A stretch of DNA of 64,000 bases from Dyella silvae. GTDB lineage: Bacteria; Pseudomonadota; Gammaproteobacteria; Xanthomonadales; Rhodanobacteraceae. How positions within the stretch are numbered: the first letter of the stretch is position 1; every line of letters begins with the position of its first letter. Where the stretch lies: assembly GCF_026421305.1 (NCBI RefSeq), contig NZ_JAPJBQ010000001.1, positions 372,001 through 436,000 on the forward strand. Reading direction: 5' to 3'. The position numbers and the translations under genes are program-made. Positions 27,519 to 30,543 of this stretch are shown one piece after another. The notes under the pieces are model-generated. The model did no database searches, had not been told where the DNA came from, and saw only the letters and a list, made by a program, of their open reading frames with translations.

Positions 27519-28709
27519 TCAGCTGGGCGTGTCGGTAGATGTGACGGGACGGCGGAGTAGCCACGCGAGCACGGGTGGCGTCACCATGGCCGTGAGCAGC
27601 GACATCGCCACGATGATGGCGTAAATCTGGTTCGTGAATACCCCGGCAGACAAGCCCAGACTGGCAATCACCACGCCCACCTCGCCACGCGGAACCATGC
27701 CGAAACCCACGATGATGGCACTGCGCGAGCGCAACGACAGCGCGCCGAGATAGCCGCCAATCAACTTCGACGCAATGGCGATCAGGGTGACCACCAGCAA
27801 CATCATGCTGGCCTCGAAGTCGGCTAGCAGATGCAGATCGATTTTGCTGCCGGTGATGACGAAGAAGAATGGCGTCAGCAAGGCGAGCAAAGGCTGCGTC
27901 TGCTTTTCCAGGGTGTGTTGCTGGCGTGTTTCGGAGGCGATCATGCCGGCGAGGAAGGCGCCGATGATGGCGGCCAGGCCAAACAGGGTCGAGACATAGG
28001 CCAGACCCAGGCATAGCGCCAGCACGATGGCCAGCGCCGAGTTCGGGTTCTGTGGTTTGTCCAGCCAGCGGGAATTCCAGCGCATCACACGAGCCCCGCC
28101 CAGGCCGATGACGGCGATGAAGCCGATCGCGCCGCCCAGCACGGCGAGCAGATGAATCAGGTCGACGCCTTCGCCGCCTTGCAGCGACACCACCACGCCA
28201 AGCAACAGCATGGCAAGAATGTCGTCGATCACCGCAGCGCCAAGAATCACTTTGCTCTCGGTACGCTGCAGCGCGCCGAGCTCTTGCAGTACGCGCGCGG
28301 TGATGCCCGCCGAGGTGGCAACAAACGCTGCCGCGATGAAAAGGGAGCGGCTCCAGTCGAACCCGTTGCCGTGCGCCCACAGGCCGCCCATTCCAAACGG
28401 CACCAGCACGCCAAGCACGCCCACCAGGAAGGCCACCTTGCCGACCTTCTTCAGGTCCTCCAGGCGTGTTTCCAGGCCCACGGAGAACAGCAATAGCACC
28501 ACGCCGATTTCCGCCAGCACATCCAATGGCGTGCCTGTGGCGACCTGTTCGGGCGTGATCCAGCCAAGCACGGAAGGGCCGACCACGCAGCCCGCGGCGA
28601 TCTCGCCCACCACGCCGGGAAGTTTCAGGCGCTGCGCGATCTCGCTGCCGATCTGGGCGGCGATAAAGACGATAAAGAGTGTGAGCAGGATGTCGCTGGC
28701 GTGGTGCAT
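27519..28709 (-). CDS. CPA2-family cation:proton antiporter
   Basis: 396-residue inner-membrane exchanger with about 12 helices. Family marks: LPGVVGEIAAGCVVGPSVLG near the N-terminus, AEIGVVLLLFSVGLET, the ion-binding region AAVIDDILAMLLLG with an Asp pair, and FGMVPRGEVGVVIASLG. It lacks the C-terminal TrkA-N (RCK) domain of KefB/KefC, so it is nearer to NapA/GerN-like Na+/H+ or K+/H+ exchangers. Ion specificity cannot be read from sequence. The gene is followed downstream by phrB in convergent orientation. Confidence 0.9.
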   Translation of the reverse strand: MHHASDILLTLFIVFIAAQIGSEIAQRLKLPGVVGEIAAGCVVGPSVLGWITPEQVATGTPLDVLAEIGVVLLLFSVGLETRLEDLKKVGKVAFLVGVLGVLVPFGMGGLWAHGNGFDWSRSLFIAAAFVATSAGITARVLQELGALQRTESKVILGAAVIDDILAMLLLGVVVSLQGGEGVDLIHLLAVLGGAIGFIAVIGLGGARVMRWNSRWLDKPQNPNSALAIVLALCLGLAYVSTLFGLAAIIGAFLAGMIASETRQQHTLEKQTQPLLALLTPFFFVITGSKIDLHLLADFEASMMLLVVTLIAIASKLIGGYLGALSLRSRSAIIVGFGMVPRGEVGVVIASLGLSAGVFTNQIYAIIVAMSLLTAMVTPPVLAWLLRRPVTSTDTPS

Positions 28710-28778
28710 GGAGAGGAGCGGCCCCGTGATCAGATCCGCTGCATGCTACATGCTCCGTGATCCGTGCGTGGTGCGTCC

Positions 28779-29071
28779 CTAGGGATGCTCTGATCTATTC
28801 CACGTGCCCGGCATGACGTCCATAAGGCTCAGCGGCGGTGTTGCGCGGCACAGGACAGACTGGCCGTCTGTTCAAGCCGCGTGGCACCGTCGCTGGGCCT
28901 TATGGACGTCACCCCTTCTATTCAGATTAATACGTTGGGGCCGCACGGTATGCGCGCAACGCTTCGCCCCGTCGTCTCGACAGACGGCCAGTCTGCCTTC
29001 GCCGCCGGAACCGTGCGTTGCGTGCATACCGTGCGGTGACGGGTACGTGGAATAGATCAGAGCATCCCTAG
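28779..29071. mobile_element. 285-bp MITE with IS5-like ends and CTAG target duplication
   Basis: A non-coding element (28783-29067) bounded by 23-bp perfect terminal inverted repeats (GGATGCTCTGATCTATTCC-ACGT and its complement at 29045-29067), flanked by CTAG on both sides as in IS5-group insertions. Two internal stem-loops fill it: 15 bp, 28814-28828 with 28897-28911; and 22 bp with one mismatch, 28941-28962 with 29015-29036. Each apical region carries a short palindrome, and 16 nt of one (28856-28871) are exactly complementary to the other (28980-28995). No transposase is encoded, so it would be moved in trans. It occupies most of the 358-nt gap between the antiporter and MFS genes. Confidence 0.85.
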
Positions 29072-30543
29072 CCGGAGGCTCGCCCCGGTCGTGGCGCGCC
29101 ATCGTTCTGCAGGCGGCTGAACACCCAGCTGGCCGTGGCCGTCACGATGCCGAGCAACAACACAGTCCAGCGGAAGGCGGGAATGTAGTCCTCGTTCGAG
29201 TGTCCTTTCAGCAGGGCTTCCATCAATAGCGAGGCCAGCGCGATGCCGAAACTCATCGACAAGTATTGAGCCGTCGATGCCATCGACGATGCCTGTGAAG
29301 CGAATTTCACGTCCAGGTCGTTGTAGATCAGCGTGTTCATGGCGGTGTACTGCATGCCCATGAAGCCGCCGTAGATGAAGACCATCAGCGCAATGAGCCA
29401 CATCGGCGAACTCTTGCCGAGCAGGGCGAACGAGGCGAGCAGGGCGGCGACGACCAGCGTGTTGGTAAACAGCAGATTGCGATAGCCAAACCGGTTGAGC
29501 AGCTGGTTGATGCCCCACTTTGCGGTAATCGAGCCCAACGCTTGCGGCACCATCATCAGGCCGGCCATCAACGGCGACCAGCCGCAACCGACCTGCAGAA
29601 ACAGCACGAGCAACAGAAACATGCCCGACACGCCCAGCCGCGTGAACAGGTTGCCTGCCAACGACACCCACACGCTGCGAATGCGCAGCAGGCTGAGATC
29701 GGCAACCGGATGAGGGGTGCGGCGGCTGTGCCAGACATAGATCGTGCCGAACGCGATGGCCAGTGCGCCATAGATCGCAATGGACACCCAACGGCCACCA
29801 CCGCCGCTGGCGACTTCTGACGCGGTCAGCAGCATGGCCGAGGCAGCCGCGAACAGCAGAAAACCGAAGATGTCGAACGCGGGCGCCTGGTCGAGCCGGT
29901 AGTCGGGCATGTCGCGCCGGTTCATCCACATACCGACGATACCTACCGGCACATTGATCAGAAAGATCAGTCGCCACGAGGTGTACTGCGCAAGCGCACC
30001 GCCGAGCAGTGGACCAAGCACCGAACCCATCAGGCCCACCGTGGCCACCGTGCTCATCGCCCTTACAAACTCGCGTTTGTCGATGCTGCGCACGAGTACG
30101 TAGCGGCCCACAGGCATCAACGCTGCGCCGCCAAGGCCTTGCAGCACACGCGCCGCGACCAGCTGCGGTAGCGTCTGCGCGATGCCGCACAACAACGAGC
30201 CAATGGTGAAGGTGGCGATGGCCGCGGCAAAAATGCGACGTGTGCCGAAGCGATCGCACAGCCAGGGGCTGGCCGGAATGAAAATCGCCAGCGTCAGCAC
30301 GTAGCTGGTCAAGGCGGTGCGCATGCCCAGTGGTGTGACATGGAGCGCATCGGCCATGGCGGGCACGGCGGTGTTGACGATGGTGGAATCCAGCGCCTGC
30401 ATGAAGAACGCCGCAGCCACCAGCCAGATCAGGCCGCGATAACGCTCGCTGGACGACGCTGCCGGTGCTGCGGGAGCTGGCGCCTCATCGTGCGGAGGTG
30501 GATCGGGGAGGTTGGCCTCAGGGGTGGCAAAATTTTCTGGCAT
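29068..30543 (-). CDS. MFS exporter, DHA2 (EmrB/QacA) type
   Basis: 491-residue inner-membrane drug:proton antiporter-like protein with about 14 helices. The DHA2 pattern is seen in LIWLVAAAFFMQALDSTIVN (helix 1, motif D1), LCDRFGTRR (motif A) and LGGAALMPVGRY with GSVLGPLLGGALAQYTSWR (motif C). An Ala/Pro-rich cytoplasmic N-terminus of about 35 residues precedes helix 1. Substrate unknown; export of toxic compounds is typical. The stop codon TAG lies inside the CTAG target of the adjacent MITE, so the insertion sits exactly at the gene end. Confidence 0.9.
   Translation of the reverse strand: MPENFATPEANLPDPPPHDEAPAPAAPAASSSERYRGLIWLVAAAFFMQALDSTIVNTAVPAMADALHVTPLGMRTALTSYVLTLAIFIPASPWLCDRFGTRRIFAAAIATFTIGSLLCGIAQTLPQLVAARVLQGLGGAALMPVGRYVLVRSIDKREFVRAMSTVATVGLMGSVLGPLLGGALAQYTSWRLIFLINVPVGIVGMWMNRRDMPDYRLDQAPAFDIFGFLLFAAASAMLLTASEVASGGGGRWVSIAIYGALAIAFGTIYVWHSRRTPHPVADLSLLRIRSVWVSLAGNLFTRLGVSGMFLLLVLFLQVGCGWSPLMAGLMMVPQALGSITAKWGINQLLNRFGYRNLLFTNTLVVAALLASFALLGKSSPMWLIALMVFIYGGFMGMQYTAMNTLIYNDLDVKFASQASSMASTAQYLSMSFGIALASLLMEALLKGHSNEDYIPAFRWTVLLLGIVTATASWVFSRLQNDGAPRPGRASG

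Follow-up and report, generated by a model that had tools for sequence, protein, structure and literature searches.

Known systems

The usual view of MITEs is that they are inert leftovers of ISs and that their interiors are arbitrary, and REP pairs are inverted pairs of strand-polarised hairpins. The element described here, located in a 64,000-nucleotide stretch of Dyella silvae DNA (the window), resembles the MITEs of the IS5 family in having IS5-family ends, a 4-bp YTAR duplication, several copies and no transposase gene, as well as in its presumed mobility in trans. It differs from them in that its interior is not a deletion product of an IS and its pair of hairpins is also found in elements with other ends. 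With the REP, BIME and REPIN repeats and their RAYT it shares inverted pairs of strand-polarised hairpins, but its hairpins are larger and it has IS5-type ends and a target duplication. Like Correia, ERIC, QMITE, BOX and SPRITE elements, to which it was compared by general description rather than by sequence, it is short, structured and intergenic. Structured MITEs give foldable transcripts that, according to a review, are sometimes cut by RNases, as for Correia and ERIC (PMC10969869); such cutting is the closest precedent known for a role of the element as RNA. Among the matches listed in full-text searches of the open literature, preprints aside, there was no description of this family.

The element in the window

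The MITE occupies positions 28779-29071 of the window, between two genes on the minus strand, and the mobile repeat itself comprises 285 letters, as read from the sequence. Its identity as a MITE is firm. The features are as follows.

27519-28709, minus strand: flanking gene of a Na_H_Exchanger (PF00999) antiporter (open reading frame and domain match)
28779-28782, no strand: left target-site duplication CTAG (direct reading)
28783-28805, plus strand: left terminal inverted repeat, 23 bp, perfect, GGATGCTCTGATCTATTCCACGT, starting with GGATGCTCTGAWYWA (direct reading)
28814-28911, plus strand: hairpin H1 with tip loop TGGCC; the plus strand gives the more stable fold, with compensatory changes
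28856-28870, minus strand: tip of H1, a weak match to module model R1 (14.9 bits, E 0.16; model search)
28911-28938, plus strand: hinge, a CCCC/GGGG mini-stem with a variable AT-rich loop (fold and alignment)
28939-29037, minus strand: hairpin H2 with tip loop GGCCA as read on the plus strand; the minus strand gives the more stable fold, with compensatory changes
28959-29019, plus strand: module core within H2, model R1, 56.2 bits (model search)
29045-29067, minus strand: right terminal inverted repeat, 23 bp, perfect (direct reading)
29068-29071, no strand: right target-site duplication CTAG, whose CTA, read on the minus strand, gives the TAG stop of the MFS gene
29068-30543, minus strand: flanking MFS transporter gene (PF07690), whose end lies inside the right CTAG

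The left repeat (28783-28805) and the right one (29045-29067) are perfectly complementary when inverted, and beyond them one mismatch is followed by a further pairing stretch, CCCG/CGGG. The CTAG duplications and the perfect 23-bp ends of a MITE, as well as two hairpins at the positions given in the original prediction, can all be read directly, and the 16-nt match between the loops (28856-28871, cagactggccgtctgt, with 28980-28995) is indeed an exact reverse complement. The module core within H2 contains TCGACAGACGGCCAGTCTGCCTTC (28977-29000), and the hinge loop reads CCCTTCGGG in short copies. The plus strand of the 293-nt region folds with -219 kcal/mol (z = -21.5), a value as low as which was attained by none of 200 dinucleotide shuffles.

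Copies and insertion sites

The search for further copies, by which the original prediction could be checked, gave 39 blastn matches in the own genome (G000), merged into about 18 places, and matches in 29 of 101 genomes, own included. Among the 17 other places in the own genome, two (L069 and L070) are degenerate or fragmentary. For the comparison of copies 57 loci were fetched. Edges with identical 4-mers were found in 18 of 52 MITE copies, nine with TTAA and seven with CTAG; the differing edges of the remaining 34 would fit, rather than prove, what is expected of old copies. A second set of copies has ends like AAGGCAACACTGATCAAGT and the same interior.

The orthologous site was without the element in all 18 genus relatives examined. 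These sites comprise 1-35 bases, against 23 bases and the element in the window, the flank having been extrapolated for several relatives in which the anchor ended early. TA or TAG is retained at the position of the right duplication in several of the empty sites.

Some copies have an altered structure or an unusual location. L063 (G000:C22) and L064 (G000:C15), of 225 bp, carry a similar deletion of the H2 tip with a short hairpin left, and three copies (L061, L072 and L067, at G000:C2:25015, 28070 and 29782) are located inside about 5 kb. A further module, some 45 nt long (CTCGCTCCTCAA...CATCCATG...CTCCCCGCGTGCG), with a variable palindrome of its own, is placed at a fixed point in H2, right after CTGCCTTC, in L082, L088, L090, L105, L107, L152, L172, L185, L247 and L252; it is present in copies with either end type. 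Two Dyella-type copies (L169 and L183) were found in a Candidatus Eremiobacteraeota MAG, suggesting bin contamination or transfer.

Probable IS5-family partner

IS elements of 1153-1196 bp in relatives (L126, L127, L132 and L330) carry GGATGCTCTGAWYWA at both ends with no mismatch. They are flanked by CTAA on both sides (L126 and L127), by TTAG on both sides (L330) or by TTAG and CTAG (L132). Their transposase was assigned to NF033581 (IS5 family) with 350.6 bits against a cut-off of 140, and both NF033581 and PF01609/PF05598 matched for L126 and for a fragment of L132. The transposase frame is open in L126 and L127 and contains a stop codon in L132 and L330. Two other ISs (L124 and L125) have ends resembling the second end type of the MITE (AAGGCAACACTGATCAAGT-like).

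In the own genome, neither PF01609, present in 57 of the 117 genomes of the family, nor, at 1e-30, a homologue of the L126 transposase, which has homologues in 10 of 61 genomes, was found. The IS5-family transposase with the same ends that was sought thus exists in relatives and is missing from the own genome, although an autonomous partner in the same genome is not required of a MITE. Probably, the element is moved in trans by a transposase of this family.

The interior appears to have another origin. Between five ISs and the MITE copies only the terminal 20-37 nt were aligned (blastn, best 40 matches), and a search for the module in 25 IS loci, two of which repeat the same IS, gave nothing better than E 0.92. 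As the similarity to ISs in these matches is limited to the ends and the IS loci tested are without the module hairpin, a MITE formed by simple internal deletion was rejected, in agreement with what the original prediction had said of the interior.

The hairpin module in other repeats

The module reads GCGTTG-N7-TCGAC[stem]NNCCA[stem']GCCTTC-N8-GCCTTG, and its tip on the favoured strand is GAAGGC-stem-TGGNN-stem'-GTCGA. H1 and H2 are probably inverted copies of one such module, from which both would descend. The second hairpin of four elements (L042, L295, L297 and L292) matches the H2 model R1 on the opposite strand, with E values from 9e-4 to 0.008 (0.003 for L292).

The pattern TCGACAGVCNNCCAGBCTGCCTTC was found in at least 113 stretches in a scan of 84,980 species genomes, the chance expectation being about 0.3 if equal base frequencies are assumed. 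Among the matches listed, the hosts are Dyella, Rhodanobacter and kin; Alcanivorax, Alloalcanivorax, Tamilnaduibacter, Oleiphilus, Pseudoteredinibacter, a Cellvibrionaceae MAG and Marinobacterium; and, more distantly, Geothrix rubra, Nocardioides ferulae, a Nocardioidaceae MAG and a Propionibacteriaceae MAG with many copies of the pattern. Most of the distant repeats inspected carry terminal inverted repeats of their own, and in other Gammaproteobacteria, in Geothrix and in several Actinomycetota the module is found inside repeats whose ends are unrelated. A covariance model built from 32 modules (R1) gave matches in 5 of the 398 genomes searched from the phylum, the own genome among them. One built from 69 modules (R2) did so in 7 of 296 genomes from the phylum to which the Propionibacteriaceae MAG belongs. 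Searches over 40 genomes had stricter filters, by which weak members may be missed. Six of the seven R2-positive genomes hold at least two copies, and most elements found with R2 measure 157-170 bp, have a single hairpin and differ in their ends.

In Marinobacterium lutimaris (L236:700-1100) four module hairpins form a tandem array in one orientation, and no IS5-type ends were noticed near this array.

In plasmids there was no match to the element of the window or to that of Alloalcanivorax, in E. coli genomes none to the Cellvibrionaceae element, and in viral contigs the exact tip pattern was not found. With Rfam at the gathering score, only a tRNA was found in the whole window; the region 28700-29150 had four matches up to E 5, all far below the gathering scores, and eight distant loci had none up to E 1. 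Membership of a known Rfam family was therefore rejected for the element and for these distant loci.

Conservation of the stems and strand polarity

In an alignment of 42 copies, from which 16 of the 57 fetched loci were excluded because they were truncated, degenerate or enlarged, all the stems persist: the terminal one, those of the two hairpins and the short one of the hinge. Pairing in the stems reaches 97.5% of 4262 cells, against 81.0% in shuffled alignments, 75 of 102 stem pairs show a double change, covariation is 0.460 against 0.146, and none of 500 shuffles attained any of five measures of stem conservation, a comparison with slid controls being favourable to the tested structure since it was taken from the same alignment. 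Both hairpins are thus kept by compensatory change, as had been anticipated. The most conserved letters are the unpaired ones of the tips and internal loops.

Departures from Watson-Crick pairing were counted only at column pairs where 50% or more of the 42 copies have a Watson-Crick pair. On the plus strand H1 has 99 G-T and 12 A-C cells, H2 has 7 and 59, and the terminal stem, with 25 and 16, shows little asymmetry. The pairs left out as below half Watson-Crick include T-G-rich pairs of H1 (columns 65/106 and 69/102), which favour the polarity, and one pair of H2 (190/239, T-G in 25 of 39), which is against it. A cruder count, arm by arm, gave 130 against 52 for H1, where the polarity is seen, and 79 against 86 for H2, where it is not, because the fixed mismatches of the conserved internal loops were counted.

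Folding energies agree with opposite polarity. In a set of 140 elements, the plus strand is more stable for H1 in 110 of 117, H1 being assigned loosely as a long hairpin with TGGNN other than H2, and the minus strand is more stable for H2 in 106 of 108 (110 of 111 if the region is taken from the fold of the other strand). Distant elements show the polarity in seven of nine H1 and 12 of 13 H2, both H1 exceptions belonging to one Cellvibrionaceae MAG and differing by 0.4-0.5 kcal/mol. The favoured strand is also more stable in 72 of 79 module cores. The exceptions amount to 7 of 117 H1, 2 of 108 H2 and 7 of 79 cores (L293 and L296 among these), and in three further genomes all five two-hairpin elements agree for both hairpins. 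As the copies are related, sign tests overstate this evidence.

Judged from sequence, the polarity and the conservation of unpaired letters are best read as marks of a folded single strand, and to that extent the folded RNA proposed originally is supported. The chances appear about even that the two inverted module copies inside this MITE function in single-stranded, folded form, for which RNA is the likeliest candidate. A transposase of the IS5 family would move it in trans into YTAR sites, and its interior would consist of two inverted copies of one hairpin module with a short hinge between them. Each copy folds best on the strand that runs in from its side of the element, so that a transcript from either flank would first meet a correctly handed hairpin. 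The conserved tip and internal loops may then serve as a site of recognition or processing, for example by a ribonuclease or an RNA-binding protein, aiding the persistence of the element. Against RNA as the acting strand, 131 of 208 flanking gene sides point away from the element, so that read-in from neighbouring genes would be unavailable at many copies. There are hints that the module inside the MITE is a previously undescribed signal of folded RNA or single-stranded DNA; RNA is preferred here by judgement, since sequence alone cannot separate the two.

The module might instead act as folded single-stranded DNA during replication, uptake or transposition, bound by a hairpin-binding protein, which we consider possible but rather doubtful. 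The polarity fits this equally, as G-T wobble is milder than A-C in DNA too, two polarised hairpins facing each other recall the layout of REP pairs, and independence of neighbouring transcription fits the many copies with genes pointing away. The best-known candidate protein, the RAYT-type Y1 transposase, is absent here, PF01797 (Y1_Tnp) having been found in 15 of 23 module-bearing genomes and being missing from the own genome and from 8 of the 23. None of the 20 fetched Y1_Tnp regions has a module less than 2 kb from the Y1 gene, the matches in two of the 20 being more than 4 kb away, and a RAYT/REP link was rejected since Y1_Tnp, although common in module genomes, is not beside the module in these regions.

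Other palindromes, such as GGGGTCAGATCCC/GGGATCTGACCCC, flank the Y1_Tnp genes of module-bearing genomes in L361, L362, L363 and L367.

It is unlikely that the likeness of the arms is due to template switching, conversion between the arms of a palindrome or a similar event at the DNA level, with a structure devoid of function. Such processes do yield changes that look compensatory, and the terminal stem with its 25 against 16 departures is nearly symmetric; however, they leave the conservation of unpaired tip and internal-loop letters, the polarity that is opposite between the hairpins and seen again in further families, and the presence of the module in several phyla with differing ends to be accounted for.

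Neighbouring genes

Context and orientation were counted with gene calls from a simple codon model of our own. Flanks were available for 111 copies, eight of them incomplete, and the 103 classified copies are located between divergent (39), tandem (51) or convergent (13) genes, 77 of the 208 flanking gene sides pointing into the element and 131 away from it. Of the inward sides 38 end at -8 to +7 bases from the element edge, and 11 of the 131 outward sides start within the same distance. YTAR target sites are often the gene's own TAG or TAA stop codon and, since YTAR contains TAA or TAG, insertion into a stop codon leaves the gene whole.

The element could also be a two-way transcription terminator or a 3'-end processing site for both neighbours, in line with the stop codon of the MFS gene inside the right CTAG, with the 38 of 77 inward genes ending at the edge and with the RNase processing of MITE-bearing transcripts reported for Correia and ERIC (PMC10969869). 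We hold this to be improbable, because 39 of the 103 classified copies are between divergent genes, the window region contains no terminator-like site, none of 117 H1 and 108 H2 hairpins is followed by a T-run, and the overlap with stop codons may simply result from the YTAR target. Gene orientation around 32 one-hairpin elements showed no preference either (three for the favoured strand, six for the other). An intrinsic terminator was rejected on the lack of terminator-like sites and T-runs, and a host 3'-end element with preferred orientation on the 32 one-hairpin elements; the original suggestion of a 3'-end processing element for the two flanking genes is weakened by these results and by the share of gene sides (77 of 208) that point inwards.

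Complementarity of the loops

In the 42 copies, the pairs between the two loops are paired in 88.6% of cases against 88.4% in shuffles, and their covariation is 0.086 against 0.085, attained by 217 of 500 shuffles; the loop complementarity predicted to be kept by compensatory change therefore behaves as in shuffles. Inverted-copy origin of H1 and H2 would by itself explain the complementarity, and the 16-nt match is no independent feature because the hairpins look like inverted copies. That the two loops kiss to form a single compact RNA was rejected and is highly improbable, since, despite the exact 16-nt complementarity of the window copy and the near-fixed TGG and CCA in the respective loops of the 42 copies, covariation does not exceed that of shuffles, opposite polarity means that H1 and H2 are not both optimal on one strand, and the tip is also retained in one-hairpin elements.

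Implications

Somewhat short of an even chance, in our estimate, is the broader reading in which the module, common to MITEs with different ends in at least three phyla, represents a new class of selfish folded nucleic acid. Its members would be marked by conservation of the internal loops and by a TGGNN tip on the favoured strand, would be moved by transposases that presumably differ, and would occur singly or as inward-facing pairs that offer a working copy to a transcript or strand arriving from either side. In this element conservation seems to lie in the interior, whereas the ends seem to be what is exchanged. Should the module prove to be a signal acting in cis as RNA or single-stranded DNA, models R1 and R2 would provide a motif for finding such elements and their host partner, and the signal would be a testable reason for the persistence and spread of some MITEs.
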